Of a stretch of 64,000 nt of DNA, positions 31,796 to 51,349 are shown piece after piece. A program made the translations under genes and the position numbers. Each line of letters begins with the position of its first letter. Positions within the stretch are counted from its first letter, which is position 1. The notes below the pieces were generated by a model. The model did no database searches, was not told the origin of the DNA, and was given only the letters and a program-made list of their open reading frames with translations. The stretch is from Carboxylicivirga linearis (GTDB taxonomy: Bacteria; Bacteroidota; Bacteroidia; Bacteroidales; Marinilabiliaceae), in the NCBI RefSeq assembly GCF_018271995.1, contig NZ_JAGUCO010000009.1, positions 62,001 to 126,000 of the forward strand, in the 5' to 3' direction.

Positions 31796-31800
31796 GATTT

Positions 31801-34095: not shown

Positions 34096-34119
34096 GACGA
34101 TTAAGATTTACAGTTTTGG

Positions 34120-36123: not shown

Positions 36124-36218
36124 AATGATTGATTTGAGTTAATAATTGTTTGAATACTGATGCTAAAGTATTAGGATAGAAACGGCTATACATCCATGTA
36201 AAACCTGAAAATAAATTC

Positions 36219-36234
36219 AGGGAATTCCCTTAGA
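36219..36234 (+). promoter_or_regulatory. Palindromic operator, copy 1 (before the first two-component operon)
   Basis: AGGGAATTCCCTTAGA, with the perfect palindrome AGGGAATTCCCT at 36219-36230. It is centred about 33 bases upstream of a -7-like TATCTTG (36255-36261), which would put it near -41 from the start of transcription, the classical position of an activator touching polymerase. Exact core shared with copy 2. Confidence 0.7.
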
Positions 36235-36334
36235 AAATACTTCTGTTTTGAATTTATCTTGCGCTTGGTTCAGTGAATTAGCAATTTACAGAACTTATGA
36301 GCATAAATGTTGTTTACCATTAAACCGTATACCT

Positions 36335-38317
36335 ATGAGGAATTATTTGCTTCGTTCCAACACCCGAGTGTTGCTATTGATATTGTTATTCTTGTTTGCA
36401 GCCAATCAAATAAAAAGTCAGGATAAATCAGTTATTGATAGCCTTCTGAATCAATTGCCCAAGCAAACAAACGATTCGCTCTTCATCGAAAAATTATGGG
36501 AAGTTTCATTTGCTTATGAATCATACAACCTTGATTCAGCAGCACAATATGCCCTTAAAGCAATCAACCATTCAAAAAGAACAGAGAACAATGAGTACCT
36601 GATACGATCGCTTATTACCTATGGTAATATTTTACGCGATAAACGCAGTCAAGAGAAAGCTGATTCGATTTTGCAAGTGGCTGAAAAGGTTTGTGTAGGT
36701 AGTGTCTATGAAGATAATTATGCATTTTTTTTATTCAATGCCATTGGTGGTTTAAAAACTAATGAAGGAAAATATACAGAGGCCATTGAGTATTATTTAA
36801 AAGCTTTGAAGAAAGCTGAATTGTTAGGTGATGAATATTATAAAGCTGCCACATCGCTTGATTTAGGTGTATTATGTGCGTATACAGACGAATACGATAA
36901 AGGACTGAATTATTACTACGATTCGTATCAGTATTTTAAAGAAATAGATGATGGTTATTTTATTGCCGCAAGTGCCAATGGTTTAGGAAGTATCTATCAA
37001 TTAACCGGAGAAATTGATTCGGCTTTATACTATAATAATATAGCCTTGGATTATTCATTAAAGATAGATAATCAGATTTTGGCAGCCCGTATGTATACTA
37101 ATCTGGCAGAGTGTTATGCTATCCAGAACGACTATTCTAAATCGCTTCAAGCACATTTGGATGCACTAAAAATTAAGGAAGGTCGGGGTGACTGGCAAGA
37201 TATTGCGATATCAAAGATTTTGGTTGGGCAAACTTATGCTCGAATGGGAGAATTAGCAAAGGGTCTCCGGTTTATTGACGAGGGGCAATTAATGGCAGAT
37301 ACATTGAATCTGCCGTATATTCAAAAAAGTGCCTTACTGGCTAAGAAGGAATCTTACTATTTGAATAAGAAATATGAAAAGGCTTACGATTATTTGCAAA
37401 AATATCATGAGTTGAATGATAGTATCTATTCTGAAGATGTAAAACTGCAAATTAAAGAATTAGAAGAAAAATACGAATCGGAGAAGAAAGATAAACAACT
37501 ATTGGAACAAAAAGCCAGTTTGGCAATGAGCGAGAAAAAAAGGGTGCAGCAGCGTAATTTATTATTGGTCAGTGTTGGATTGCTTGTGATTCTTGCAGGC
37601 TTAGTTGTATTTACTTTTGCTTACATGCGTCAAAGGCGGAAACTATACAACGAAACGATAGCCAATCTGGAGAAAGAGAAGGAATTAACTCAACTGAAAT
37701 TTGTGATGGAAGGAGAGGAGAAAGAGCGATCGAGGCTGGCACGTGAGCTGCATGACGGAGTAAATGGCAGCTTGGGGGCTATTAAATTAATGGCCAGCAG
37801 TGAGCTAAAAAAAGCGAGTGATACAAGTGATAACCTGATACGAATTAATCAAATGCTGGATTCGGTAAGTGATGAGGTTAGGGATATTTCGCATAATCTG
37901 ATGCCTGATACATTACTGAAACTGGGGCTGGACGAGGCTTTGCTTAAACATATTAATAAGCTTTCTGAAACAGATAAAATAAATGTTGATTTTCAATCCT
38001 ATGGAAGAATGGATGATTTGGATGTTACTGTAAAACTGGCTATATACCGAATTACGCAGGAGTTACTGAAAAATATTATTAAACATGCCAAAGCTTCGGA
38101 AGGTCTTGTTCAGGTAAACCGACATCAAAACGAATTATCATTAATTGTGGAAGATAATGGTAAGGGTTTTGATGTGTTTGATCGGGCCCAAAAGAAGAAT
38201 TGGGGCATTGGTCTTCAGAATATTTACAATCGTGTAGAAATACTGGGCGGCATAATCGATATTCAATCCTCACTGGATGCCGGCACATCAATCAATATTA
38301 ATTTACCTTTAAACTAA
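36335..38317 (+). CDS. TPR-containing NarL/UhpB-type sensor histidine kinase
   Basis: 660 residues from the ATG at 36335, chosen because a signal peptide follows directly (LLLILLFLFAANQIKSQ). Order: periplasmic TPR repeats (about 40-390, for example YYKAATSLDLGVLCAYTDEY and ARMYTNLAECYAIQNDYSKS), coiled coil, one transmembrane helix (LLLVSVGLLVILAGLVVFTFAY), then HisKA_3 with His473 in RLARELHDGVNGSL, and the HATPase with EDNGKGFDVF and WGIGLQNIYNRVEILGG. The TPR region probably senses a periplasmic peptide or protein. The response regulator starts 4 bases later. Operator copy 1 lies upstream, suggesting autoregulation. Confidence 0.93.
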   Translation: MRNYLLRSNTRVLLLILLFLFAANQIKSQDKSVIDSLLNQLPKQTNDSLFIEKLWEVSFAYESYNLDSAAQYALKAINHSKRTENNEYLIRSLITYGNILRDKRSQEKADSILQVAEKVCVGSVYEDNYAFFLFNAIGGLKTNEGKYTEAIEYYLKALKKAELLGDEYYKAATSLDLGVLCAYTDEYDKGLNYYYDSYQYFKEIDDGYFIAASANGLGSIYQLTGEIDSALYYNNIALDYSLKIDNQILAARMYTNLAECYAIQNDYSKSLQAHLDALKIKEGRGDWQDIAISKILVGQTYARMGELAKGLRFIDEGQLMADTLNLPYIQKSALLAKKESYYLNKKYEKAYDYLQKYHELNDSIYSEDVKLQIKELEEKYESEKKDKQLLEQKASLAMSEKKRVQQRNLLLVSVGLLVILAGLVVFTFAYMRQRRKLYNETIANLEKEKELTQLKFVMEGEEKERSRLARELHDGVNGSLGAIKLMASSELKKASDTSDNLIRINQMLDSVSDEVRDISHNLMPDTLLKLGLDEALLKHINKLSETDKINVDFQSYGRMDDLDVTVKLAIYRITQELLKNIIKHAKASEGLVQVNRHQNELSLIVEDNGKGFDVFDRAQKKNWGIGLQNIYNRVEILGGIIDIQSSLDAGTSININLPLN

Positions 38318-38321
38318 GCCT

Positions 38322-38954
38322 ATGATAAACCTGGCCATAACCGACGATCATCCTTCTGTTGTTGAAGGATTGAAAACCATGTTTTTGGATGATTCTTTCG
38401 TGAATATTGTAGCTGTTTACTCAACGGGCAAATCAACAGTTGAAGGATTAAAAACTCAACAGGCCGATGTGTTATTGCTGGATATCAATCTACCCGATCA
38501 GAGTGGAATAGATACGTGTAAACAGCTTCTTGAGTTTGCTCCTCAATTGGCCATCATTGCTTTTACCTCCTATAAAGACACTCGTCATTTAAAGGAGTTG
38601 TTAGGTTTGGGAGCAAAAGGCTATATGTTGAAGAACTCATCTTATGATGAGATGCATCATGCCATTTTAACCGTGTACGACGGCGGAGAATATCTTCAAC
38701 CAGAGATGAAGGATGAGTTGGTTAAAGAGTCGCTGAACAGAAGTGATACCATGAGTTATATTCCCAAACTTACCAGGCGTGAAAAGGAAATACTTCAACT
38801 GATACTTCAGGAACATACCACGCAAGAAATGGCCGACAAACTGTTTATCAGCTTTAAAACAGTTGAATCGCATCGCCTGAATCTGCTGCAAAAGCTGGGT
38901 GTTAAAAATACTGCAGGATTGGTACGTATGGCTATTGAGCACAAGTTGGTGTAG
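38322..38954 (+). CDS. NarL/LuxR-family response regulator (first system)
   Basis: 210 residues. The receiver has the acidic pair Asp8-Asp9, phosphoacceptor Asp54 in LLLDINLPDQ, Thr/Lys sites in IIAFTSYKD and GYMLKNSS. The C terminus is a LuxR-type helix-turn-helix: LTRREKEILQLILQEHTTQEMADKLFISFKTVESH. It is co-encoded with the TPR kinase. Directly after its stop codon (8 bases) begins operator copy 2, followed by a secreted protein gene. It is one of two candidates to bind the GGGAATTCCC sites. Confidence 0.95.
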   Translation: MINLAITDDHPSVVEGLKTMFLDDSFVNIVAVYSTGKSTVEGLKTQQADVLLLDINLPDQSGIDTCKQLLEFAPQLAIIAFTSYKDTRHLKELLGLGAKGYMLKNSSYDEMHHAILTVYDGGEYLQPEMKDELVKESLNRSDTMSYIPKLTRREKEILQLILQEHTTQEMADKLFISFKTVESHRLNLLQKLGVKNTAGLVRMAIEHKLV

Positions 38955-38960
38955 AAATGT

Positions 38961-38977
38961 AGGGGAATTCCCTTAGA
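38961..38977 (+). promoter_or_regulatory. Palindromic operator, copy 2 (after the first response regulator)
   Basis: GGGGAATTCCCTTAGA, the palindrome GGGAATTCCC being at 38963-38972. The preceding bases AAATGTA and following ATA are shared with copy 3. It lies 75 bases before the start codon at 39047. Confidence 0.7.
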
Positions 38978-39027
38978 TACGATTTGGTTGTTTTACCTGA
39001 ACTTCCGTTGGTATAGAATAGTGACCT

Positions 39028-39044
39028 TAGTGTAAAATTCACTA
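39028..39044 (+). promoter_or_regulatory. Palindrome directly before a start codon
   Basis: TAGTG-TAAAATT-CACTA, an inverted repeat ending 2 bases before the ATG at 39047. It could be an operator or an mRNA hairpin that hides the start. A palindrome is also found in the leader of the other downstream target gene at 49.64 kb. Confidence 0.4.
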
Positions 39045-39046
39045 CC

Positions 39047-39904
39047 ATGAAAACACTATTACTACTTATGCTTTTATTTATGGGATTACAGTCAAATGGT
39101 CAGAACACTCAACGCATTAACTATCGAAACATTGAATTTAACCTGCCACCTGACTGTATTGGTTCCGAAAACGTCGAAGGTTATCTGATCGAAAATAAAG
39201 ATGCAGATTATTATATTATCGTCAGACCGGCATCGTTTGCTTCACAAGATGCAATCATTCAAGAATTAAACTCAAATGCTTTAGGTGGAGAAAGTAATGC
39301 TGAATTTATCCGAAACAGCGAAATTACTAGTATTACCAACAATGCCTTTGGGGCACAGTATACATTAAGTTCCGAAAATCAGTATTATTATATGTACATC
39401 GCAGGTGTGATGGGGGCCAATAATCGAGGTGCCATGCTGGTAGGTGGTAAAAAAAGCGGCACCCAATCTTTGGTATATGAATTAGCGTGTAAACAACTGA
39501 TTTCGAAATTAACTTTTAAAAATATTGAGGCTCGATCGGGCATGCTTAATCAATGGGAGAAAAACTATGCCAATACAAGTCTTACTTATATGGATTCGTA
39601 TTATAGTTCGGGTTACGGTGATTCATATGGCGCTTATCGACAAAAGATAGTTATTCAATTATCGGGGCAAGGGCTTTTCACCTATTCCGATAATTTTGAA
39701 ATGGGCGGAGGGGGCGATGCCTCTGCATTTATTGGTAAAAATGGCAACGCCGGCGAAGGTAACTGGTATATCAAACAAAATAATAATGAGGTGTTTCTGA
39801 TTTTAGAGTTTTATAATGGCAAACTTTATGAGTATAGATTAGAGACAGACGCTGAGGGAGCTACCTATTTAAATGGTAAAAGATATTATTGTACGACCAA
39901 TTGA
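39047..39904 (+). CDS. Secreted protein of unknown function, putative target of the first two-component system
   Basis: 285 residues with a signal peptide ending SNGQ (about 18). Residues 20-165 form an alpha/beta region with INYRNIEFNLPPDCIGSENVEGYLIENKDADYYIIV. The C-terminal part (about 170-285) has LNQWEKNYANTSLTYMDS, a Gly-rich stretch EMGGGGDASAFIGKNGNAGEG, then WYIKQNNNEVFLILEFYNGKLYEYRLE, which looks like a small beta-barrel or calycin-like fold seen in other Bacteroidota exported proteins. I cannot name it. Operator copy 2 and a palindrome lie in its upstream region, so regulation by the adjacent response regulator is likely. Confidence 0.78.
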   Translation: MKTLLLLMLLFMGLQSNGQNTQRINYRNIEFNLPPDCIGSENVEGYLIENKDADYYIIVRPASFASQDAIIQELNSNALGGESNAEFIRNSEITSITNNAFGAQYTLSSENQYYYMYIAGVMGANNRGAMLVGGKKSGTQSLVYELACKQLISKLTFKNIEARSGMLNQWEKNYANTSLTYMDSYYSSGYGDSYGAYRQKIVIQLSGQGLFTYSDNFEMGGGGDASAFIGKNGNAGEGNWYIKQNNNEVFLILEFYNGKLYEYRLETDAEGATYLNGKRYYCTTN

Positions 39905-39996
39905 CTGATGAAGTAAATAGTTTAGGTTTTTAGAAATCAAAAAATTGATTATAAATTTGAGAATGAGTTAAGAAAAAACAATCATCCCAGATTATC

Positions 39997-40539
39997 ATGA
40001 ACAGAAAAGACTTCTTAAAGAAAGCATGTATTTCAACAGCTTGTTTTTGTGGTTTTGGCGCTGTTGCATCGGCTGCATCAGATATAAATACAGAACCCGA
40101 GGAGAAGGAGGACACTATACAGCATGAATGGTTGGCTAATTTATTAGAAAACCTGGGTGAAGATATGGATGAAGAATTATTACGCCCTGTGATTAAAAAA
40201 GCATCGGAGGTTCATTATAATCAATTGAAAATGGATGAAATGTTATCGTCTTATGTTGGTGATATAGATGCATTTATTCAGTTTATTCAGAAAGAGTGGG
40301 CATGGAATATTACCTACAATAAAGATGAAAACATTATTTTAGCCGATGAAAACAAACCGCATTGTGTTTGTCCGGTTTTGCCGTTTAAAAAAGGAAAAAA
40401 CACTTCTGCCATATGTTATTGTTCCGAAGGATTTGCCGAAAGGATGTTTTCTTATGTGTTGAATAAACCTGTTCAGGCAGAGGTAATATCTTCGGTTCGA
40501 AGAGGCGATAGTACCTGTATATATCAAATAAACGTTTAA
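39997..40539 (+). CDS. Cys-rich protein with Tat-like N terminus, unknown function
   Basis: 180 residues. The N terminus NRKDFLKKACISTACFCGFGAVASAAS resembles a Tat signal (NRKDFLKK instead of RRxFLK). The C-terminal domain has HCVCPVLPF at about 127-135, CYCSEGF at about 146-152, and STCIYQINV at the end, a Cys/His pattern seen in V4R-like and 2-amino-thiazoline hydrolase-like domains that may bind metal or a small ligand. This relationship is by pattern. A Crp-like regulator gene starts 19 bases downstream and is probably co-transcribed. Confidence 0.7.
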   Translation: MNRKDFLKKACISTACFCGFGAVASAASDINTEPEEKEDTIQHEWLANLLENLGEDMDEELLRPVIKKASEVHYNQLKMDEMLSSYVGDIDAFIQFIQKEWAWNITYNKDENIILADENKPHCVCPVLPFKKGKNTSAICYCSEGFAERMFSYVLNKPVQAEVISSVRRGDSTCIYQINV

Positions 40540-40558
40540 ATGAAATTGAATTAGCCTA

Positions 40559-41170
40559 ATGAATACTATCAGTCAATCTGATTATCAACAATTTTATCAG
40601 TTTTTAAATAATATTACTCCGGTTTCTGAAGACTTGTTTGCCAATATCAGGCCCCTTCTTAAAAAGAAATGTTATCGAAAAGGAGATGCTATTTTACGGG
40701 AAGGAGATATAGAAATCAACTCAAAATTTGTTTTAAAAGGAGTGGTGCATCAATATATATTTGAAGAAGATGAACCTTTGACCATCAATTTAACACCGGG
40801 TGGATTGGTTTTTAATTGTATTAAAAGTTACATCGAAGGAACTCCCTCGGTTGAGATACAGGAGGCCATTACGGATGTTGAGTTATTATTTATAGAGAAG
40901 TTTGCTTTGGAGGAACTGGCTCAAAAAAATCAGGAATTCAGTTATTTATTATTTAAAATATACGAAAGCATACTTGCCGACCGTGAGAACAGAACTTTAA
41001 TGCTTCAGTATCGAAATCCATCTAAAAGATATCAATTGTTTTACGAAACAGTGAAACGAGCTCAATGGATAGTGGGAGATACGCCTGATAAATATATTGC
41101 AAGCTACCTTAATATGACTCCCCAGCAATATAGTAAAGAAAAGAGATTGGCAGCAAAGAAGTTATCTTGA
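40559..41170 (+). CDS. Crp/Fnr-family transcriptional regulator
   Basis: 203 residues. The cyclic-nucleotide-binding-type barrel is visible (LLKKKCYRKGDAILREGDIEINSKFVLKGVVHQYIFEEDEPLTINLTPGG), followed by the C helix and a short C-terminal helix-turn-helix region (DKYIASYLNMTPQQYSKEKR) that corresponds to the IASYLGITPxxLSR helix of the Bacteroidota group. The third residue set of the recognition helix is atypical. The effector is not known, and the phosphate-binding residues for cAMP (RxSAE type) are absent. It follows the Cys-rich gene by 19 bases; the two may form a ligand-sensing unit. Confidence 0.88.
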   Translation: MNTISQSDYQQFYQFLNNITPVSEDLFANIRPLLKKKCYRKGDAILREGDIEINSKFVLKGVVHQYIFEEDEPLTINLTPGGLVFNCIKSYIEGTPSVEIQEAITDVELLFIEKFALEELAQKNQEFSYLLFKIYESILADRENRTLMLQYRNPSKRYQLFYETVKRAQWIVGDTPDKYIASYLNMTPQQYSKEKRLAAKKLS

Positions 41171-41226
41171 GATAACTTTTATTTGAAATCAATGTATTTG
41201 TTTTGCTTCAACCAAATAAATAGAAT

Positions 41227-42579
41227 ATGTTGAAGTACACTTTTTCATTCCTACTAATTAGCCTTATATGTGTTGTTGTTTCTTCGCAGGTAAAAAATAC
41301 CGAATTGCAGCATGTAATTCATAAGCGACAAGCACTCAAAAAAGAGGTCTTAAGACATTTAGAAACTTCTCTAAACTCTCATGAAGCGCTAAAATCATCT
41401 GTCGAACCTAAATTGAAGTTAGATAGCTTGATTGAGTATAATCAAAATAGTGAAACCGATCTATGGGATAAAAAATTCACGAAAGAAACCTTTCGTTATA
41501 ACGAAGATAATAACGAAGTTTTATGGATATATTCCTCATGGAGTGATGATGCCAACGAATGGTATGGTCTGATGAAAGAGGAAAGTGATTACTACTCCAA
41601 TGGAAAGCTAAAAGGATTTATAAATTATGTATGGGGTGTTAATGATCAATGGAATGGCTTTATTAAAGAGACCTATCAATACGATGAATTAAACCGTTTG
41701 CAAGAAACTACCCATTACTCCTGGAAGAACAGTATTCAAAACTGGATAGCTACCTCGCTTACCAAATACAGTTATAACACTGATAACAGTTTAAAAAAGG
41801 ATAGTACTTATCATTGGGTGGCTGACCTGGAAGACTGGAGTATACAATCAAAAAATGATTACACCTATATTCATGGTGGCTTAATTCATCATATATATCA
41901 TTCAGAATATAATACTGCCAGCGAGTCATGGGATATTAATGAAGATACCTGGTATTTGTACGATAATATTAAGTGGTTATTGCACTCAATTACCGTTTAT
42001 GAGTTTCATAGCAATGAATGGTTTCGTAAACAGATGGATGGAATGACATACAATGATGATGATTGGCTTAATGGTAATGGTGTTGTTAAATGGAATATTA
42101 CAGGTGAAAAACCTGAGTTAACAAGCATGACAAACAGCTATTACGATTACGACCATAATACGAAGATGGAAGATTTAGTAATACCATCTTATTTGACCAA
42201 TACATACCCTCAGTTCTTCCATCATCAGGTTATAGGCCGAAGGTTATATCAGAATGAACTGGAAACAAATACAAAGTATCAGTACCGTACAATCAAATAC
42301 TATTATTCAGATGTTGATGAGGCCACAAATATCAATAACAGACAGGTGAATTCTTTTGAACTATATCCAAATCCTGCAACTGATTTTGTTTATTTAAACT
42401 TTGCAGACATAAATCAACCAGTACAATTTCAATTGTTTGATATTATGGGGGCTATAATATTTAATGTTCAGGTAAGGGCAACAGATAAGGTGGATGTGAG
42501 CTCAATTGCTCCGGGTTTGTACTTGTATGTGATACAACAAGGAAATAAAAAAGAATCAGGTAAAATAATCATTAACTAA
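41227..42579 (+). CDS. T9SS type A cargo protein with repeated YD-like segments
   Basis: 450 residues. The signal peptide ends VVSSQ (about 20). The central part (about 75-350) has repeats of the kind YQYDELNRLQETTHYSWKNS and YSYNTDNSLKKDSTYHW, that is Y-x-Y-(N/D)-x-x-x-x-L-x-x-x, resembling YD/RHS-type strands with Trp. The end (residues 375-450) is a T9SS sorting domain: VNSFELYPNPATDFVYL, LFDIMGAIIF, SSIAPGLYLYVI. So it is exported by type IX secretion. The function of the repeat region is unknown. Confidence 0.85.
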   Translation: MLKYTFSFLLISLICVVVSSQVKNTELQHVIHKRQALKKEVLRHLETSLNSHEALKSSVEPKLKLDSLIEYNQNSETDLWDKKFTKETFRYNEDNNEVLWIYSSWSDDANEWYGLMKEESDYYSNGKLKGFINYVWGVNDQWNGFIKETYQYDELNRLQETTHYSWKNSIQNWIATSLTKYSYNTDNSLKKDSTYHWVADLEDWSIQSKNDYTYIHGGLIHHIYHSEYNTASESWDINEDTWYLYDNIKWLLHSITVYEFHSNEWFRKQMDGMTYNDDDWLNGNGVVKWNITGEKPELTSMTNSYYDYDHNTKMEDLVIPSYLTNTYPQFFHHQVIGRRLYQNELETNTKYQYRTIKYYYSDVDEATNINNRQVNSFELYPNPATDFVYLNFADINQPVQFQLFDIMGAIIFNVQVRATDKVDVSSIAPGLYLYVIQQGNKKESGKIIIN

Positions 42580-42634
42580 ATTAATTGTACATTGTTAGGA
42601 TAATGAAAATATCGAATCATTATCAATTTTAAAT

Positions 42635-43117
42635 ATGCAATTACAACCAAATATTGTTTTGGGCCAAGAAAGAAAATTAGTTGGGGTAAACAAGCAAATG
42701 AGTCTGGCAGATTTTAAGCCAGCAGAGCTTTGGAAACATTTTATGCCCCTTCAGCATAAAATTAAAAATCGTGTAAATAATGAGCTGATAGCACTCACCG
42801 AATATTCAGATGATTATTTTACTGACTTTAATCCGGAGCGAGTATTTGTAAAATGGGCATTGGCTGAGGTCAATAATTTTAATGTCGTGCCTGAAAATAT
42901 GCAAACATTAGTTGTGCGCTCAGGTTTATATGCGGTATTTAATTATAAGGGGGCAGCAAATAATAATACCGTTTTTCAATATATTTTTAATGATTGGCTT
43001 CCCGCATCATCCTATCAACTTGATGACCGACCTCATTTCGAGATATTAGGGGAGAAGTATGATAATCATTCCCCCAACTCAGAGGAAGAAATCTGGATTC
43101 CTGTAAAAACGTTATGA
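42635..43117 (+). CDS. GyrI-like small-molecule-binding protein
   Basis: 160 residues that match the effector-binding fold of AraC/MerR regulators and GyrI: strand LVGVNKQMSLADFKPAELWKHFMPL, then VFVKWALAEVNNFNVVPENMQTLVVRSGLYAVFNYKG, and the C-terminal NDWLPASSYQLDDRPHFEILGEKYDNHSPNSEEEIWIPVK, which is the signature of the family (a ligand-binding Glu before IWIP). No DNA-binding domain is fused. Such stand-alone proteins bind or hydrolyse small molecules. Confidence 0.85.
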   Translation: MQLQPNIVLGQERKLVGVNKQMSLADFKPAELWKHFMPLQHKIKNRVNNELIALTEYSDDYFTDFNPERVFVKWALAEVNNFNVVPENMQTLVVRSGLYAVFNYKGAANNNTVFQYIFNDWLPASSYQLDDRPHFEILGEKYDNHSPNSEEEIWIPVKTL

Positions 43118-43161
43118 GCTTGGAATAAAGTATAAAGTGAAATTATAGTGAATGATAAACA

Positions 43162-43926
43162 ATGAGGTTTTTTAGGATCATCAGACAGACTTTATTAAAT
43201 GATAATAAAATTCGCAGATATCTGGTTTACGCGGTTGGTGAGATTATTTTAGTTGTAATTGGTATTCTAATTGCATTGGCCATTAATAATGTCAATCAAA
43301 AACATAAAATTCATAAAAAAGAGCAGGTGTATCTGCAAGGTTTGCGAAAGGAGTTTCAAACCAGTAGAATAAAATTGGTGGAACTCATTAAAGTTAATCG
43401 TTCCAATTTAAATGGGGCAAAACAGATTATTACCTTTATTGGAGCTGATAGTATCCCATCAGAGAAAGAATTATCTACCTTTCTGTTTAGCACCTTGGCA
43501 TTTGATATAGCATTTAATCCCAATAATTCGCTGCTAAACGAAATGATCAATTCGGGTAGCTTAAAAGACATTTCGAGCGATCTGTTACGTATTCATCTCA
43601 CCACATGGATTTCTACAGTGGAGGATATTTCTAAACAGGAATATGATCAGGAATTACAACGAGAAAGGGTAATGAGTGTTTTGAGTGGAGATAAATATAG
43701 TATTAGAACGGCGTATGAATTGAACGGGGCAATAAACAATCAACTTGGATTGCCGCGCATGAAAAAGCACACCAGTAATATGGGACTTTTATCCTCAAAC
43801 GAATTTGAAAATAAGCTCTTTCTGTTTATTTCATCAGCTTATGCAACTAATGTAAATCATTACCAGCCATTATTAGAGGAGTTAGATACAATAATAGAAC
43901 TGATTGATTCGGAGCTTGATAACTAA
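43162..43926 (+). CDS. DUF6090-type membrane protein
   Basis: 254 residues. The N terminus RIIRQTLLNDNKIRRYLVYAVGEIILVVIGILIALAINN has one transmembrane helix (about 22-42) after a basic segment, followed by a helical domain with QVYLQGLRKEF and NSLLNEMINSGSLKDI. This N-terminal pattern is typical of a widespread Bacteroidota family of unknown function. The helical rest probably faces the periplasm. No special neighbourhood signal. Confidence 0.8.
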   Translation: MRFFRIIRQTLLNDNKIRRYLVYAVGEIILVVIGILIALAINNVNQKHKIHKKEQVYLQGLRKEFQTSRIKLVELIKVNRSNLNGAKQIITFIGADSIPSEKELSTFLFSTLAFDIAFNPNNSLLNEMINSGSLKDISSDLLRIHLTTWISTVEDISKQEYDQELQRERVMSVLSGDKYSIRTAYELNGAINNQLGLPRMKKHTSNMGLLSSNEFENKLFLFISSAYATNVNHYQPLLEELDTIIELIDSELDN

Positions 43927-44032
43927 AGGGAGTTTTCGTTAGTTATATGCAAGTAATCAATCCCTAAAGTCTAAATAATGTGGGAATGAACTAATTTGTA
44001 TAGGAAAATTTCCTGCTTCAGCCTTTGCTTAT

Positions 44033-44040
44033 TACATTTG
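44033..44040 (+). promoter_or_regulatory. Bacteroidota -7 promoter element for the exonuclease/DUF294 operon
   Basis: TACATTTG is an exact TAnnTTTG, ending 21 bases before ATG 44062. A palindrome AGGAAA-A-TTTCCT lies upstream at 44002-44014. Confidence 0.6.
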
Positions 44041-44061
44041 TGTGCTGGCAAAATTCAATTT

Positions 44062-44715
44062 ATGAAAGATTACATCCTGTTTATTGATACAGAAACTTCG
44101 GACAAACCGAACCAATGGAATTCATCCACTAAAGAGGTGCACAAGTGGCCTTATGTGCTGCAAATATCCTGGACAGTTTGTAAAAGTAATGGACAATTAG
44201 TGTTAACACGAGATTATTATATTAATCCGGGGCAAATTGAAATTAACCCAACAGCTTATAAAATTCATGGTTTAAATCTTGATTTTCTGAAAGAAAATGG
44301 AATTCCCAGGGAAGGTGCTTTAAAGCAGTTGCTTATTGATATTAATTTGTATCAACCCCTTTTAGTGGGGCATTTTCTTAAGTTTGATTTAAAAATGATT
44401 GAAGTGGCTTTTAACCGGGTGGGTGAATCATTAAAATTAGATAATCTACCTAAGTTTTGTACTATGCTTAATACAAGGCGACCTTTTGCTCCTGCTGATA
44501 CGCCCTTATTACGATTGAATGAACTATATCATTCGCTTTTTAATAAGGAGTTGAAAGATATGCATAATGCAAAAGTAGATGCACTGGCAACAAAGAAGTG
44601 CTTTTTTGAGTTAGTTAATCAAGGTAAGATTGATGATAAGGTAATACAAAGGCAACAAAAGCTTTTTAAAAAAGGAGGTAAATTTAAAAGTATCTTACTT
44701 CAACTTTTTCCATAG
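44062..44715 (+). CDS. DnaQ-like 3'-5' exonuclease
   Basis: 217 residues from ATG 44062. The DEDD(h) motifs are present: Exo I FIDTETS (7-13, Asp9 and Glu11), Exo II LVGHFLKFDLKMIE (about 99-112), and Exo III HNAKVDALATKKCF with the His six residues before the Asp. The substrate could be DNA or RNA. The start was moved downstream from a longer frame because the promoter lies between. Its 3' neighbour, 65 bases on, is a cNMP/CBS/DUF294 nucleotidyltransferase; exonuclease and DUF294 genes are often neighbours in other bacteria. Confidence 0.92.
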   Translation: MKDYILFIDTETSDKPNQWNSSTKEVHKWPYVLQISWTVCKSNGQLVLTRDYYINPGQIEINPTAYKIHGLNLDFLKENGIPREGALKQLLIDINLYQPLLVGHFLKFDLKMIEVAFNRVGESLKLDNLPKFCTMLNTRRPFAPADTPLLRLNELYHSLFNKELKDMHNAKVDALATKKCFFELVNQGKIDDKVIQRQQKLFKKGGKFKSILLQLFP

Positions 44716-44780
44716 TAAAACCTTTGTATTATTATGGTATTGTAAATGTAGTAGCTGGTGTGTCAGGTTAGACATGTATT

Positions 44781-46679
44781 ATGAAAGATAAAAAAGAATT
44801 CTTACAACATATTTCTCCATTTAATATTTTATCCGATTCAATACTTTCTGATGTTTCGGAAATGATGTCAGTTAAATCATTTAAGAAAAATGAAACCATT
44901 TATGTTCAGGATAAAAGCCCAATAAAAACGGTTGATATTATTGTACAAGGAGCTTATAAGGCTAACTTCTACGATAGTAATCACGTTCTTCGATTGGAAG
45001 AATTATACAATAGTGAAGATATTTACGGAGGTAGTTCCGTTCTTCTGAATAAGCAATATTCAATTCGTACAGTTATAGCGCTGGAAGATACAGAAGTGCT
45101 TACACTTGACAAGGAGGAGTTTAAGGCTTTGTGCAGGAGTTATCACGAATTCTTCGATTTCTTTTCAGATCAGTTTGGTAATAAAATGCTGAATGATGCC
45201 TATGCGCATTTTGTCAAGCAGAATACCATGTTTGAAGAGAACTTTATTGATGCTGATCTGATTTTTACGCGAAAGATTGATACTATTGCGCCTCGGTTAT
45301 TAGTTACTTGTTCTCCTGAAACCCCATTGCACAAAGTAGCTGCTTTAATGCGCGATAATGTTGTTAATTGTGTATACATAGAGCAAGATGAAGAGCTGAT
45401 TGCTTATGTGTCGAAAGATACTTTGATTAAGAATGCCTTAGCAAATGAAGTAAGCACCAATGCAGAAGTAATTAGCGTAGCAGAGACTGATGTCGTTACT
45501 ATTTCAAAAGATGCATTGGTTTATGAAGCGCTTTTAGCATTATATCCATCTCAAAAGGAATACTTATTGGTAAAAGACGGTGATAAAAACCTGGGGTATT
45601 TAAGCCGATATCGATTGTTGACCGAGCATGCTCAATCGCCCATGGTATTTATTCAATCGGTAAAATTATCAAATACTACCTTTGAATTAAAAGAGAAATG
45701 GGCTAAAGTTCCTGAGTTTATCGAATCAATGTTGGGGCGTGGTGTAAATGCCGAAATTGTAAACCGAATTATCAGCACCATTGCCGATGAGATTTTGTCT
45801 CGGGTAATAAACGGTGTGATTAATGAAATGCCACCAGCTCCGGCTCAATTCTGTTTTATGGTTTTAGGTAGCGAAGGACGAAATGAGCAAACATTAGCCA
45901 CCGATCAGGATAATGCCATTATATACGAAGACAAAGCCAACCTGCAACGAGAGACCGTAAGAGCTTATTTCCTTGAATTTGCTGATCGTATTTCTTCACG
46001 ACTGGATGATATTGGATTTAAATTTTGTACAGGTGGTTTTATGGCTAAAAACCCCAAGTGGTGTCATTCGCTTTCGCATTGGAAACGTAATTACGATAGT
46101 TGGATTGCTGAACCGGCACCAGATCAGGTAGTGAAGTTTTCTACTTTTTTTGATTGTCGTTTTGTATACGGTGATGAGTCTTTATTCGATGAACTACATC
46201 AGCATATGCTGGATTGTATAGATAAAGCTCCACCTAAATTTTCATATAATTTGGTAAGTAATACATTACAATACGAAGTTCCGCTAACTGTATTTAAAGG
46301 AATTAAAACCTTTGTAAAAAACGATAAGAAAGTATTTAACATTAAGCATGCAATGAGCACTATTGTAGATATGGCACGTATGTATGCATTGCGATATAAA
46401 ATTCAGGACAACAATACAGGAGTAAGACTTAAAAAGCTATATCAGGCCGGTCATTTTGATGAGTCGCAATACAAAGAATTGCTTAATGCTTATTATTATT
46501 TAATGGGGTTAAGATTGAAAAATCAATCGACCCAAATATTGCGGGATTTTACCGAAGCAACTAACTTCTTAGAGCTAAAAAGGCTAACTGCTGTTGAGCA
46601 AGCTACACTGCGTGAGATATTTAAGTTCTTAAAAAATATGCAGTGGGTTATCAAAGCCAGGTTCAATATTAATCGGTAG
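44781..46679 (+). CDS. cNMP-binding, CBS, DUF294 nucleotidyltransferase-like protein
   Basis: 632 residues. Order: cyclic-nucleotide-binding barrel (about 10-135, IVQGAYKANFYDSNHV then IYGGSSVLL), a pair of CBS domains (about 165-285), the DUF294 putative nucleotidyltransferase domain with LGSEGRNEQTLATDQDNAII (about 355-375), the Gly-Ser plus two Asp pattern of the GlnD/KNTase superfamily, and the DUF294_C substrate-binding domain (about 470-620). It therefore probably modifies a protein or nucleotide in response to a nucleotide signal. The target is unknown. Follows the DnaQ-like exonuclease. Confidence 0.92.
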   Translation: MKDKKEFLQHISPFNILSDSILSDVSEMMSVKSFKKNETIYVQDKSPIKTVDIIVQGAYKANFYDSNHVLRLEELYNSEDIYGGSSVLLNKQYSIRTVIALEDTEVLTLDKEEFKALCRSYHEFFDFFSDQFGNKMLNDAYAHFVKQNTMFEENFIDADLIFTRKIDTIAPRLLVTCSPETPLHKVAALMRDNVVNCVYIEQDEELIAYVSKDTLIKNALANEVSTNAEVISVAETDVVTISKDALVYEALLALYPSQKEYLLVKDGDKNLGYLSRYRLLTEHAQSPMVFIQSVKLSNTTFELKEKWAKVPEFIESMLGRGVNAEIVNRIISTIADEILSRVINGVINEMPPAPAQFCFMVLGSEGRNEQTLATDQDNAIIYEDKANLQRETVRAYFLEFADRISSRLDDIGFKFCTGGFMAKNPKWCHSLSHWKRNYDSWIAEPAPDQVVKFSTFFDCRFVYGDESLFDELHQHMLDCIDKAPPKFSYNLVSNTLQYEVPLTVFKGIKTFVKNDKKVFNIKHAMSTIVDMARMYALRYKIQDNNTGVRLKKLYQAGHFDESQYKELLNAYYYLMGLRLKNQSTQILRDFTEATNFLELKRLTAVEQATLREIFKFLKNMQWVIKARFNINR

Positions 46680-46694
46680 TAAAATGGTCTGATT

Positions 46695-47180
46695 ATGAAG
46701 AAAGATCAGATAAAACCTCTTGTTGACAGTGATTATCTGTTGGAAAAGTTTCCAGGTAAAGGAGGCTGGACTTATGCCGATATTCCTGAAGTAGCACCTG
46801 ATAAACATAGTTGGTTCAATTGGGTGAAGGTTCGAGGGTTTATTGATAATTATGAAATTCAGCATGCCCGATTAATGCCCAAGGGTGATGGCATGCTCTT
46901 TTTACCGGTTAAAACAGCAATTCGTAAGGCGATTAAAAAACAAGCAGGTGATACAGTTCGTATTATTCTATACCCCGATGATACTTCAGTAGAATTACCA
47001 AATGAATTAAAAGACTGTTTTGATTTTGAAGACCTTCGGTTAAAGGAAGCCTTTGAAAAAGAACCTGAAGGAAGAAGAAAAGAATTTATCGAATGGATTT
47101 TTGAAGCTAAAAAGGAAGAGACAAAAGCTAAGCGAATTGCAAAGTGTATTGATTATTTAATAGAAAAGTATCGTCTTTAG
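46695..47180 (+). CDS. YdeI/OmdA-type protein (DUF1905 plus YdeI C-terminal domain)
   Basis: 161 residues. The N-terminal half has PGKGGWTYADIPEV and WFNWVKVRGFIDNYEIQHARLMPKGDGMLFLPVKTAIRKAI of DUF1905. The C-terminal half has FEKEPEGRRKEFIEWIFEAKKEETKAKRIAKCIDYL, the YdeI/OmpD-associated helix pair. In other bacteria such proteins are linked to peptide resistance or stress, with no proven mechanism. It starts 15 bases after the DUF294 gene and is probably its operon partner. Confidence 0.87.
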   Translation: MKKDQIKPLVDSDYLLEKFPGKGGWTYADIPEVAPDKHSWFNWVKVRGFIDNYEIQHARLMPKGDGMLFLPVKTAIRKAIKKQAGDTVRIILYPDDTSVELPNELKDCFDFEDLRLKEAFEKEPEGRRKEFIEWIFEAKKEETKAKRIAKCIDYLIEKYRL

Positions 47181-47335
47181 GTTTCAAAAAATCAAGTATT
47201 ATACCCATGGCTGCCTTCATTGAATGTCGATAAAAGAACCGACTATTGATTTTATTAAAAAGTCTGGTTTATTCTTACCAACTCCGTTTAATATTTTGTG
47301 TATTTATTCTTATATTTATAAATAGCATTGATTAA

Positions 47336-48916
47336 ATGAATATAGATAACCAAACTCATAATACATCGCTTAACCAAAATAAGTTAAATGATAAAATACT
47401 AAAAAGGGTATTTTTAATTTTAACCATACTGGTTGTTCCGGTAATTATAATAGCTGTTGTTCGTTCCTATCTTATATCAGGAAATTTAATTACGGTTGGA
47501 CTAACCGGGATGGCGCTGATTATTAGCTTATCATTTCTTTTCTATACAAAATGGAAAACTGAATTAAGAATTCAGACTTTTTTAATTGTTCTGATTTCTT
47601 TGGCGGCCTTTGGTATGTATCATTATGGAATCTTTTCTTTAAGTAAATATGCACTTGTTTTGGTACCTGTTTTTGCCATTGTGTATTTATCCTACAAGCG
47701 GACATTACTATTAGGGGGGATTTCATTATTGGTTTTTATTGTTTTTGGAACATTATATTCCTTAGAATTAATTTCGTACAAAGCAGATGCTAATATTTTG
47801 GCAGTGATGCCAACTACATGGATAACGGAAGCTCTGGTTTTAATGATTATATCCGTTTCAATCAGTATTGTTGTCTATAATATGGTGAATGCTTATAAAA
47901 AGGAAGTTCTTAAGCTAAAAGCAAGTGAAGAAATGCTTTATAATAGTTTAAATGATTTGCCTCTTCCGGTTGGTATTATGAATAAAGATTATGAGATTCT
48001 TTTCATAAACAACAGTTTAGTCGAACACATGGGCTACTCATTAAATGATGGGGGCGATGTACAATCGATTTTAAAACTGGCATTTCGAGAAAATGAGAAG
48101 TTTAAGGAAATTATTAAAGAGTGGCAGATTAGTATTGATAAAGCCTTCGAAAGTCAAATTGTTCCGCCGGTTAAAGAGTACTCTTATTTAAGTAAGAATG
48201 GTGAGAAAAGAATTTCGGAGATTCATTATAGTTTATCAAATGATAAGATTCTATTGATATTTGTTGATCAGACAGAGAAAAAAGAGCGGATGAAAGAGAT
48301 TGTTAAAGCAATTGTGCAAACAGAAGAGAAGGAAAGAGGAAGGGTGGCAAAGGAGTTGCATGACGGTTTAGGACCTCTAATTTCCACAGCAAAAATATAT
48401 GCTCACAGTTTAACAAAAGTAAAAGATGAAAAAACAGTATCATCATATAACGATAGGTTGCAGCAAATATTAGATGAATCAATAAATGAAATAAAAGATA
48501 TATCCAATAATCTGAGTCCGCATATTTTGCGTAATTATGGACTAAAAGATGCCATACTTTCATTTGTTGAGAAGTTAAGACCTGTTTCTGGTATAAACTT
48601 TTCTATAAGTATTGATTTTCATAGTCAGCTAAATGAAGTGATACAGTTTACCACCTATCGTTCCATAGTAGAGTTGATCAATAATTCCATAAAGCATGCT
48701 GATGCGAAAGATATAATTATAAAGGTCAAAGAAGAAGATTCTAACTTGTTGATTGTATTTGAAGATAATGGAGTTGGCTTTGATTTTGAAGAAAATAAGA
48801 ATAAAGGATTTGGATTAAATAATTTACTTGCCCGTATTAATAATATAGGCGGTAATTTTGACTACTTTACTGGCCCTGATAGTGGGGTGGAGATAAAAAT
48901 AAACTTACCATTGTAG
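47336..48916 (+). CDS. Integral-membrane PAS sensor histidine kinase (second system)
   Basis: 526 residues. The N-terminal 190 residues contain about six transmembrane helices (for example RVFLILTILVVPVIIIAVV, LITVGLTGMALIISLSFLFY, WITEALVLMIISVSISIVVY), then a PAS domain (about 205-320, LPLPVGIMNKDYEILFINNSLVEHMGYS), HisKA_3 with His342 in AKELHDGLGPLIS, and the HATPase with EDNGVGFDFEENKNKGFGLNNLL. The sensor region is buried in the membrane and no periplasmic domain is seen. The response regulator starts 4 bases later. Unlike the first system, no palindrome is seen before this gene. Confidence 0.93.
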   Translation: MNIDNQTHNTSLNQNKLNDKILKRVFLILTILVVPVIIIAVVRSYLISGNLITVGLTGMALIISLSFLFYTKWKTELRIQTFLIVLISLAAFGMYHYGIFSLSKYALVLVPVFAIVYLSYKRTLLLGGISLLVFIVFGTLYSLELISYKADANILAVMPTTWITEALVLMIISVSISIVVYNMVNAYKKEVLKLKASEEMLYNSLNDLPLPVGIMNKDYEILFINNSLVEHMGYSLNDGGDVQSILKLAFRENEKFKEIIKEWQISIDKAFESQIVPPVKEYSYLSKNGEKRISEIHYSLSNDKILLIFVDQTEKKERMKEIVKAIVQTEEKERGRVAKELHDGLGPLISTAKIYAHSLTKVKDEKTVSSYNDRLQQILDESINEIKDISNNLSPHILRNYGLKDAILSFVEKLRPVSGINFSISIDFHSQLNEVIQFTTYRSIVELINNSIKHADAKDIIIKVKEEDSNLLIVFEDNGVGFDFEENKNKGFGLNNLLARINNIGGNFDYFTGPDSGVEIKINLPL

Positions 48917-48920
48917 ATCT

Positions 48921-49562
48921 ATGATACGTATTGTTTTAGTTGAAGATTTAGATTTAATAAGAGAAGGAATAAGAGTTTTAGTGTCGCAAATTGATGATTT
49001 TGAGATAGTGGCTGAATACTCAAATGGTAAAGAATTAGTTGATAATATTAAGCATCTGGAAGTTGACGTCATAGTAACGGATATTGATATGCCTGTAATG
49101 GATGGCATTACAGCAACCCGAAAGGTTTTAGCTTTTAAGCCCGACCTTAAGGTGATAGCACTTTCTTTATATAACGAGTCTCAATATTATCACGATTTAT
49201 TATCTGCTGGAGCAAAAGGCTTCATTTTAAAACAATCAAGTATCCATGAGCTGGAAGAGGGAATCAGAGAGGTTTTTAATGGTAACTCATATTTCTCGCA
49301 GGAATTGTTGCAGAATGTTATTAAGAACATGAACTATAAAAATGCCAATTCCAATACCCTTGAAGAGCAAATAACTGATAAAGAAAAAGAATTACTTCAA
49401 TATATCTGCCAGGGTTTAACTAATCAGGAGTTAGCTGATAAATTATTTGTTAGTGTTAAAACCATTGAAAGTAACAAGGCAAGGTTAATGCGTAAAACCA
49501 ATTCAAGAAATAATGTTGCCCTTATCTTGTGGGCCATAAAAAATAGGGTTGTCCAGCTTTAA
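48921..49562 (+). CDS. NarL/LuxR-family response regulator (second system)
   Basis: 213 residues. The receiver has Glu8-Asp9, Asp54 in VIVTDIDMPVMDG, and the Ser/Lys sites ALSLYNES and GFILKQSS; the C-terminal LuxR domain reads ITDKEKELLQYICQGLTNQELADKLFVSVKTIESNKARLMRKT. It is paralogous to the first regulator (38.3 kb). Operator copy 3 begins 5 bases after its stop codon, the same place as copy 2 has after the first regulator. It is the nearer candidate for control of the receiver/MCP genes downstream. Confidence 0.95.
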   Translation: MIRIVLVEDLDLIREGIRVLVSQIDDFEIVAEYSNGKELVDNIKHLEVDVIVTDIDMPVMDGITATRKVLAFKPDLKVIALSLYNESQYYHDLLSAGAKGFILKQSSIHELEEGIREVFNGNSYFSQELLQNVIKNMNYKNANSNTLEEQITDKEKELLQYICQGLTNQELADKLFVSVKTIESNKARLMRKTNSRNNVALILWAIKNRVVQL

Positions 49563-49566
49563 AATG

Positions 49567-49583
49567 TAGGGATTTCCCTAGAT
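49567..49583 (+). promoter_or_regulatory. Palindromic operator, copy 3 (after the second response regulator)
   Basis: TAGGGATTTCCCTAGAT, centred at 49573-49574. Preceded by AAATG as in copy 2. A -7-like TATCTTG, the same as that of copy 1, lies at 49626-49632, so the centre would be near -63 from the transcription start. The difference from copy 1 is about 22 bases, two helical turns. Confidence 0.65.
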
Positions 49584-49643
49584 AAAAACCAAGATTTCAC
49601 TGCTTCGCAAAAATAATTTCCTACCTATCTTGCACACTATAAA

Positions 49644-49658
49644 TAACGAACTTCGTTA
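49644..49658 (+). promoter_or_regulatory. Palindrome in the leader of the degenerate receiver gene
   Basis: TAACGAA-C-TTCGTTA, a perfect 7-1-7 palindrome 10 bases before the GTG start and just after the likely promoter. It may be an operator or a small mRNA hairpin. Confidence 0.4.
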
Positions 49659-49668
49659 TACATAGTTT

Positions 49669-50070
49669 GTGAAGAAACAACATCCAAATATAGTTATTGT
49701 TAATAGTTTGAAAAGCATGGTTGATGCTTTGTACGATTTTATTGAAAGCGATACTGATTATAAAATAATTGGTAATATGTCTGAATTTAAAAAGCTATTA
49801 AAATTGCCACAACTTAATGAAGTTGATATGGTATTGGTTGATACTATTATACTTGATGAAAATAGTGAAGATATAATAGAAAAGGTCAAGAAAAATAGTC
49901 CTGAATGTAAATTTATAGCTATCAGCTTGTATGATGATCAGGTTTATTTACAGGATTATTTGAAAATTGGTTTTTCCGGAATGGTAAGTAAAAACAAGAT
50001 TACCGAAGAACTTATAGAAACAGTTACTCAGGTGATGGAAGGTTTAAATGCTTTTCCGAATAAGAATTAA
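49669..50070 (+). CDS. Degenerate receiver-domain protein without output domain
   Basis: 133 residues, GTG start. The fold is that of a response-regulator receiver: phosphoacceptor-like Asp58 in VLVDTII, Ser86 in FIAISLYDD, Lys108 in MVSKNKI. However, the acidic pair that binds magnesium is replaced by Asn12-Ser13 (IVIVNSLKS), so normal phosphorylation is doubtful. No DNA-binding domain follows. The resemblance of ISLYDD and GFSG to the two nearby regulators suggests descent from one. It is probably co-transcribed with the MCP gene 11 bases downstream and may act as a decoy or adaptor. Confidence 0.85.
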
Positions 50071-50081
50071 AGAAGGGGGAG

Positions 50082-51200
50082 ATGAAAGAATTTATAATTT
50101 TTGTATTGCTGATGATACCTTCCATAGGAAGCTTGATATTTGTATTACGAAAAATATTTAAAACATCGATGTTATTTACATTTGGTGTGATATGGATCGT
50201 TACTCAGTCCATTATTGTGATAGAAGCTTATGGAATTGGGAAAATGGGTGAGTTAATTGATTTTGCGTGGGCTTTCCCATTAGGTATTGGAATTATTATT
50301 TTAGGCTTTATCTATTTGGCAAAAAATTATAAAAAGGTGCTTGAGGATACTAGTAATTATATCCTTCGTTTATCCGAAGGCGATTTAAATGTAAAGCTGG
50401 ATGAAAAGCAGTTTAAACGAAAAGATGAGGTGGGTATTATCCTTAATTCTTTAAATGTTTTAATTACGCAATTGCGAGAAGTAGTAGGAAGTGTGCAGGA
50501 TAATGCTAACAATGTGTTGAGTGCCAGTATGCAATTAAGTTCCAGTTCTGAACAATTGTCGCAAGGTTCAACGGAACAGGCTTCATCGTTGGAGGAGATT
50601 TCATCCACTATGGAAGAAATAGCAGGTAATATTTCGAGTAATACTGATAATGCTAAAACAACATCAGGTATAGCCAATGATTCTAGCAGTAGTATGCAGG
50701 AAGTAGCTCAGGCAGCAGATGGTAGTTTTCAATCGGTAAATCAAATTGCTGAGAAGATATCAATAATTAATGAGATTGCAGATCAAACCAATATATTGGC
50801 TTTGAATGCAGCTGTTGAATCGGCACGAGCAGGTGAATATGGAAGAGGATTTGCCGTTGTGGCTTCAGAAGTAAGGAAGCTGGCAGAAAATAGTAAACGA
50901 GCAGCAGTGGAAATTCTTGAACTTTCTGGTAATAGCTTGAAGGAAACGGAAATGGCTCATGAGAAATTAAATAATATAAAACCAAATATTGAAAAAACAT
51001 CAGATCTAATTCAGGAAATTACGGCTGCCAGTATGGAGCAAAACAATGGAGTGGATCAGGTAAACAACGCGATTCAGGAGTTGAATAATGTTACCCAACA
51101 AACTGCATCGATGGCAGAGGAGATAGCCAGTAGTTCTGAAGAATTATCTGGACAGGCAAGGGGGTTAAAAGAGGCTATTTCTTATTTTAAGCTAAAGTAA
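50082..51200 (+). CDS. Methyl-accepting-type signalling protein without a periplasmic sensor domain
   Basis: 372 residues. Three transmembrane helices in the first 75 residues ([56 protein letters not shown]) have only short loops, so no periplasmic ligand domain exists. A HAMP-like segment (about 90-140) follows, then a coiled-coil signalling domain with tip [37 protein letters not shown]. No che genes are seen in the window. Its upstream partner is a degenerate receiver. The gene may serve non-chemotactic signalling. A terminator follows. Confidence 0.92.
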
Positions 51201-51237
51201 TTACACTATCGGGTAACTTTATTTTATAGGGGGAGTT

Positions 51238-51279
51238 GTAGGGCTTGCGACATTAGTTGCGGGCCTTACTTCTTTTTAT
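51238..51279 (+). terminator. Probable terminator after the MCP gene
   Basis: GTAGGGC (51238-51244) pairs with GCCTTAC (51263-51269) with one wobble, followed by TTCTTTTTAT. The loop is 18 bases, so the strength is uncertain. Confidence 0.5.
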
Positions 51280-51349
51280 ACTACCTTGAATGTTTATTAA
51301 TAAGCCGAATTTTATTATTTTAAGTGCATTGTTAATAAATAGGTAAATA

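Follow-up and report, generated by a model that had tools for sequence, protein, structure and literature searches.

Three palindromes in a 64,000-nt stretch of Carboxylicivirga linearis DNA (assembly GCF_018271995.1, contig NZ_JAGUCO010000009.1, positions 62,001-126,000, forward strand; hereafter the window) are very likely operators, as judged from their sequence and placement. We propose that they are probably bound by the NarL/LuxR-type response regulators of two two-component systems, where regulator 2 (RR2) would act at copy 3 and regulator 1 (RR1) at copies 1 and 2. Copy 3 is part of a conserved, mostly local putative control region belonging to a gene cassette that usually ends in a chemoreceptor. 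Coordinates without a contig label are window positions, and G000 denotes the window's own 6.05-Mb genome. A first-pass annotation of the window had placed the palindromes at 36219-36234, 38962-38977 and 49568-49582, and inspection of these positions reveals the letters exactly as it quoted them. It had also put copies 2 and 3 directly behind the stop codons of NarL-type regulators. As quoted, they begin 7 and 5 bases past these codons (TAG 38952-38954 for RR1; TAA 49560-49562 for RR2), and the GerE helix-turn-helix (HTH) domains of the two regulators match at 3.9e-18 and 3.4e-13, respectively.

Taken as a full palindrome, copy 3 reads TAGGGATTTCCCTA (49567..49580, plus strand) and constitutes box A of the candidate operator. 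The surrounding cassette is encoded entirely on the plus strand. Upstream of box A are kinase 2 (47336..48916), with HisKA_3 and HATPase_c domains and an N-terminal half without a Pfam match, and RR2 (48921..49562), which combines a receiver (Response_reg, 6.6e-24) with the GerE HTH and has the recognition helix KTIESNKARLMRK. The first gene after the candidate operator encodes a stand-alone receiver (49669..50070), and the second encodes a signalling protein of the methyl-accepting chemotaxis protein (MCP) type that matches HAMP weakly (50082..51200).

Conservation of this arrangement was analyzed in a kinase-2 survey of 36 genomes including C. linearis, from which the 23 best matches by E-value were retained, the window locus being one of them. 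Kinase 2 is rare outside the family; 3 of 295 genomes of the order have a match at 1e-60, the window's own included. A stand-alone receiver gene lies behind the NarL-type regulator in 20 of the 23 loci, with a Response_reg match in all 20, and an MCP gene follows the receiver, directly or one gene later, in 15 of these. Contig ends cut off the region where the MCP gene would lie at two others (L116, L118). Each gap behind the regulator was scored by the number of matching positions out of 10 in TAGGG-N4-CCCTA or TGTGG-N4-CCACA, with 1000 shuffles as background. A palindrome is present between regulator and receiver in all 20 receiver loci (gaps of 77-398 bp), and in 16 of these gaps no more than 6 of 1000 shuffles match or exceed the observed score. 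The best 15 loci, window included, all pair a receiver gene with a TAGGG-N4-CCCTA-type site (8-10 of 10), while five of those ranked 16-23 pair one with a TGTGG-N4-CCACA-type site (10/10 in four, 9/10 in one). The three loci with no receiver gene behind the regulator (L237, L239, L242) have no site above 7/10 in the 120-656 bases that follow it. The presence of a site in 20 of 20 receiver loci and 0 of 3 receiver-less loci indicates that the candidate operator goes with the receiver gene, and not just with the end of the regulator gene.

Because the palindrome precedes the receiver gene in all 20 receiver loci, the receiver/MCP genes at 49.7-51.2 kb are the likely target of copy 3, as the first-pass annotation had proposed. 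The flanks AAATGTA and AGATA, which the first-pass annotation had noticed around copies 2 and 3, are present, but the two closest orthologs do not share them, and we therefore do not use them as evidence. Three additional loci stand outside the 23-locus count, two spotted via motif matches (L126, L129) and one a relative of L126 (L243); all three have AGGG-type sites of 8-9 of 10. In the window's own genome, at least three regulators (RR2 on C180, and one each on C22 and C93) have a TAGGG-type site of 9-10 of 10 behind them. At one locus (L122:799-2382, G006:C79), a stop codon splits the kinase frame, and the other parts of the module, from regulator and operator to the receiver and MCP genes, appear undamaged.

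An alignment of 14 gaps shows TAGGG again at approximately +23 and +45, then a conserved -7-like column, a CGTT block and the start codon. Across 17 TAGGG-type gaps (L126, L129 and L243 included), a secondary peak falls at 22-23 (5.7/10 vs. a mean of 3.1, sd 0.7) and the next at an offset of 44-45. Five TGTGG-type gaps likewise have a secondary peak at 22-24 (5.8/10 vs. 3.1, sd 1.2). Boxes thus tend to recur every 22-23 bp, or about two helical turns, and arrays of protein-bound DNA show regular repeats of the same kind. In the window, a degenerate box B, which is strong in several related loci, lies 22 bp downstream of box A (49589..49602, plus strand), and the -7-like word TATCTTGC (49626..49633, plus strand), of a presumed promoter type, begins 52 bases downstream of the copy 3 centre. 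The two closest orthologs have their -7-like words, TACCTTGC and TAACTTGC, also 52 bases past the palindrome centre. At copy 1, TATCTTGC recurs with its start 30 bases past the centre (36255..36262, plus strand), and the two-turn offset between copies 1 and 3 described in the first-pass annotation is confirmed.

Promoter positions were assigned by the Bacteroidota -7 rule. If this rule applies, box B and copy 1 would each lie near -41.5, and box A near -63.5. Positions -41.5 and -63.5 are those usual for activators, so these predicted locations suggest activation. Phosphorylated RR2 dimers would bind box A (TAGGG-N4-CCCTA) and the weaker boxes 22-23 and ~45 bp downstream, all on one face of the DNA. 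From this control region, which follows the RR2 stop codon and precedes the receiver gene, kinase 2/RR2 would set transcription of the receiver gene and, if present, the MCP gene. The same regulators and sites could instead block RNA polymerase, such that the phosphorylated state keeps off the receiver-MCP genes as well as a gene beside copy 1 for a protein sorted by the type IX secretion system (T9SS). The third TAGGG half-site of the alignment, ~45 bp after box A, would suit repression, as it falls between the -33 and -7 regions just ahead of the -7-like column. The usual activator positions of boxes A and B and of copy 1, with start sites that are themselves predicted, speak against this mechanism, and we consider it unlikely.

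Half-site type also goes with regulator clade. Exact TGTGG sites belong to four regulators that group in a single clade (support 0.992) and have the helix LRTVE[ST]TKSRLMQK, and all 15 ranked TAGGG regulators have [TA]IE[SK][NQH]K in the recognition helix. The one kinase-2 match from another family, G467 (L159), has a regulator with the helix LRTVETTKSRLMQK. Its regulator-receiver gap (L159:3861-3919) contains TGTGGTTTGCCACC at 9/10, with boxes at +23 and +45 of 7/10 each, and a receiver-like frame followed by an MCP-like frame lies downstream of the array. As this gap was checked for TGTGG only once the helix pattern was known, it represents an independent, though single, agreement. With a site beside the regulator in many loci, each operator can be matched to its recognition helix, and a natural half-site switch is seen that recurs in another family.

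Exact copies of the palindromes are rare. In the window, TAGGG-N4-CCCTA occurs once, at copy 3 (0.04 in shuffles), and AGGG-[AT]4-CCCT only at copies 1 and 3 (100-shuffle mean of 0.07, largest 2); the core of copy 2 is GGGG-AATT-CCCT. The first-pass claim that the three copies were the only such sites in the window is nearly correct; it holds for copies 1 and 3 in the AGGG-[AT]4-CCCT form but fails for GGG-N4-CCC, of which there are seven (mean of 4.0 in 100 shuffles). The 15-mer GGGAATTCCCTTAGA has only two exact occurrences in the 6.05-Mb genome, one in copy 1 and one in copy 2, both intergenic and flanking the kinase-1/regulator-1 operon, where ~0.014 occurrences are expected under an order-1 Markov model of window composition. 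Similarly, GGGAWTTCCCTWAGA has two exact matches in the genome, both at this locus (0.05 expected), and its sole one-mismatch match, C159:13166, lies within a reading frame and was dropped. The genome-wide motif search suggested in the first-pass annotation yielded no regulon. With two exact matches and no excess for the near-identical AGGGAWWTCCCTWAGA or for relaxed forms, GGGAWTTCCCTWAGA is not a genome-wide regulon motif. Matches to the relaxed motif were discarded as proof of a regulon, since their counts never exceed the reversed control. Given that exact copies are rare and that no excess appears once mismatches are allowed, the signal resides in exactness and position.

System 1 does not have the receiver-MCP cassette layout. 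Copy 1, AGGGAATTCCCTTAGA (36219..36234, plus strand), is a candidate palindromic operator between kinase 1 (36335..38317, plus strand; TPR repeats, HisKA_3 and HATPase_c by Pfam) and a divergent gene for a 667-aa T9SS-sorted protein (34120..36123, minus strand) whose start is 95 bases away. An inverted repeat, CCTGAA-N6-TTCAGG (36204-36221), overlaps the left edge of copy 1 and is terminator-like on the minus strand. RR1 (38322..38954, plus strand) consists of a receiver (Response_reg, 6.6e-23) and a GerE/LuxR-type HTH. Copy 2, GGGGAATTCCCTTAGA (38962..38977, plus strand), lies between RR1 and the gene for a 285-aa protein with a signal-peptide-like start by eye (39047..39904, plus strand; no Pfam or NCBIfam match), a possible copy-2 target. 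Copies 1 and 2 have TTAGA in common. RR1 and RR2 are 35% identical and fall in separate clades, and their kinases are of different type. We regard RR1 as the probable user of copies 1 and 2, within a system that is rare. A single regulon of three sites, as first annotated, is probably not present, as copy 3 is of the RR2-family type and copies 1 and 2 belong to system 1.

Relatives of kinase 1 at E<=1e-60 were found in 1 of 35 other genomes (G004) and in 31 of 394 other genomes of the class, where only three candidates were scored per genome. A search of genome contigs gave RR1 relatives at 51 loci with at most 37% identity. In G004, the regulator is 46% identical to RR1 and is followed 253 bases on by CAGGGTAAACCCCT and then by the gene for a 1340-aa T9SS protein homologous to the 667-aa protein of the window (29%, 2e-53). 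The first-pass annotation had named the first operon as the target of copy 1 and overlooked this divergent T9SS gene 95 bp away, whose homolog follows the palindrome in G004. A -7-like element lies at +55 from the G004 palindrome centre, and on the minus strand of the window, toward the T9SS gene, the -7-like TACTTTAG stands 54 bases beyond the copy 1 centre, so copy 1 may serve two promoters. RR1 would use a closely similar GGG-N4-CCC palindrome twice, with copy 1 acting on the kinase-1/RR1 operon itself and/or the divergent T9SS gene, and copy 2 on the 285-aa gene. Farther along the minus strand (31178-34095), two adjacent genes encode proteins of secreted type that resemble each other in their N-terminal parts, and by eye the 764-aa protein is rich in short repeats.

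One shared regulator could also account for the three copies, in which case RR2 or another TAGGG-type regulator would bind copies 1-3 and RR1 would bind elsewhere. All copies have the GGG-N4-CCC core, and the genome holds the regulators with TAGGG-type sites of 9-10 of 10 noted above. However, G004 has no kinase-2 match at E<=1e-30 and yet has a palindrome behind its RR1 relative, which favours the use of GGG-N4-CCC by RR1-type regulators. The TTAGA common to copies 1 and 2, together with their placement on either side of the RR1 operon, also argues against a shared regulator, and binding of all three copies by one protein seems to us rather improbable. Binding of copies 1 and 2 by RR1 and of copy 3 by RR2 is retained as the preferred interpretation.

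Several observations weigh against this interpretation. The 23 kinase-2 loci are related and not independent, with L116 and L117 nearly identical, and no MCP gene was seen behind the receiver in the fetched stretch of L110, L115 and L241. Four gaps are individually weak (L119, L120, L241 and L121, with scores reached by 12, 13, 21 and 55 of 1000 shuffles, respectively). In the window's own genome, most of the 19 best of 26 GerE loci are without such a site behind the regulator. Boxes B and C of the window's own array score 4/10 and 3/10. Several -7-like words occur near each site (five candidates at copy 1, including TATCTTGC, again of presumed promoter type), and those cited were chosen by distance. 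The regulator of L241, which has a TGTGG-type site of 9/10, keeps N at the helix position where the other TGTGG regulators have T, so the changed residue alone does not decide the half-site. Mismatch searches show no enrichment, whether with the written motif in the window (7 vs. 6.1 expected at <=3 mismatches), with AGGGAWWTCCCTWAGA in the own genome (168 vs. 216 control matches at <=3 mismatches) and in 60 genomes (21 vs. 32 at <=1 mismatch), or with the relaxed motif in the own genome (30 vs. 97 reversed-control sites at <=1 mismatch). For system 1, the copy 2 gap scores 7/10 by TAGGG-N4-CCCTA, a value matched by 434 of 1000 shuffles, and the G004 gap scores an equally unremarkable 7/10. 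At copy 2, neither +30 nor +52 shows a TAnnTT word. Among wider kinase-1 loci, nothing exceeds 7/10 upstream in 29 (L130-L158), and nothing exceeds 6/10 within 200 bases downstream in the nine with a recognised regulator. As copy 2 itself scores 7/10, sites like it could escape this wider survey. The lack of a clear site at these loci and the shuffle-like copy 2 gap make copies 1 and 2 less secure than copy 3, and the case for them rests on exact identity and place.

The palindromes might alternatively act in RNA, as small transcript hairpins that terminate or attenuate transcription or mark a processing site. The sequence allows a stem of 5 bp closed by a loop of 4 bases, which also counts against the operator interpretation; the folds of two related arrays are better than those of shuffled sequences (z of -4.2 and -3.4), and symmetric half-site changes keep the stem. 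The folding of the window copies is ordinary (z of -0.35 to -1.46), none of nine terminator-like sites found lies at copies 1-3 on the plus strand, and there is no Rfam match in 34000-51500. The box spacing of about two turns, the occurrence of the motif at an unlinked MCP gene (see below) and the tracking of half-sites with regulator clade likewise speak against an RNA element, which we judge highly improbable. Coincidental palindromes in an AT-rich window would agree with the frequency of GGG-N4-CCC, the unenriched relaxed patterns and the shuffle-like copy 2 gap, but chance, already very unlikely for copy 3, is rendered extremely unlikely overall by sites in all 20 receiver loci, 16 of them at the level of <=6 of 1000 shuffles, and by the two copies of the 15-mer.

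Operators, as we take the palindromes to be, of this type also occur away from the cassettes. Exact TAGGG-N4-CCCTA is found 12 times in 14 genomes of the genus (vs. 41 for the reversed control), and 8 of the 12 lie in regulator-receiver gaps. Another, G003:C96:20304-20317, is the middle of a triple TAGGG-type array with a spacing of 22+22 bp (L291:6283-6340) located upstream of an MCP gene (L291, 6456-7574); the 12 kb retrieved contain no kinase-regulator pair. The module of G003 itself (L115) is without an adjacent MCP gene in its fetched stretch, and the unlinked MCP gene is a likely target of the box, judging from this placement. Two exact sites 91 bp apart lie upstream of a T9SS-sorted cadherin-like protein gene in G013:C197 (L292:5738-5842). 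The remaining site, an exact TAGGGATTACCCTA in the own genome (G000:C115:351470-351483, L219:1501-1514), lies at the 3' end of a gene that by eye encodes a ZIP-like transporter. A guaB-like gene, likewise identified by eye, is located ~225 bp downstream of it, and no MCP gene is apparent within the 3 kb of this locus.

The own genome has 23 MCP-domain and 5 CheW-domain matches, which implies that a CheA/CheW system is present for its MCPs. Four of the 23 MCP regions were mapped earlier and the other 19 lie in 18 stretches, with C97 cut by a contig end. When these regions were scanned with a position weight matrix, only L281 (C93:219237) scored above 15, at 20.4. This site, TAGGGTTTTCCCTT (G000:C93:219237-219250, L281:5238-5251), follows a menF-like gene and precedes a run of chemosensory genes in the order DUF4154, MCP, STAS-like, CheY-like, Hpt-like, CheA, CheW, CheW and CheR-like, where DUF4154 and CheA were named by Pfam, MCP and CheW by domain searches and the rest by eye. 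Neither a clear array nor a -7-like element at +30 or +52 accompanies it, and it is for that reason only suggestive. Rejected candidates include L276 (14.7), where a reading frame ends, L285 (13.2), within a frame, and a spot in L278 that resembles an array but falls within the MCP frame; lower scores were obtained at L277 (11.1) and L275 (10.7). Near-match targets were inspected at nine of 30 sites in the own genome, not counting copy 3 and C22, and six sites inside reading frames were dropped as targets (C94:62394, C44:125940, C92:90822, C93:774544, C94:86979 and C94:102414).

These sites lead us to a tentative proposal, namely that each cassette of this bacteroidotal lineage may be an inducible chemoreceptor unit complete in itself, with a multi-box operator common to all. 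Cassettes that share the TAGGG box might engage in cross-talk, and copies that switched to TGTGG together with the helix might be insulated. The box could also reach unlinked MCP genes and perhaps a central cheA operon (a single site at C93:219237). The candidate operators also suggest that the set of chemoreceptors built by these bacteria changes in response to a second sensor.

By their predicted domains, both pairs fit the NarL/FixJ type, with a receiver and GerE domain in the regulator and HisKA_3 and HATPase_c in the kinase. The nearest solved chains of RR2 include VraR (5hev, 3.9e-34), NarL (1a04, 1.5e-23) and DesR (4ldz, 3.8e-23), and LiaR/VraR, NarL and DesR of the NarL/FixJ family have the same two-domain architecture as RR2. 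RR1 and RR2 fall below the cut-off of every NCBIfam model among the best 25 of 92 and 25 of 96 families, respectively, so orthology to a named regulator is not supported. To our knowledge, binding sites of NarL-type regulators have rarely been described in Bacteroidota. The NreBC system of staphylococci is also a two-component pair with a NarL-type regulator, NreC, whose consensus, presumably TAGGG-N4-CCCTA, would be identical to box A. According to a review (PMC8139620), phosphorylated NreC binds a GC-rich palindrome. Together with NreA, NreC governs genes of nitrate/nitrite respiration, whereas the neighbours here are receiver and MCP genes in Bacteroidota. The repetition of boxes at 22-23 bp in many loci is a further difference from NreC. 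NreB is an Fe-S PAS kinase; kinase 2 has no PAS match in Pfam at 0.001. Within the openly licensed literature, judged by titles and the openings of abstracts, no paper on this operator or cassette was found. Control of the amount of an MCP by a sensor pair is a known principle. Unlike known two-component control of chemoreceptors, the pair, the candidate operator, the receiver and usually the MCP form one cassette here, with several divergent copies per genome.

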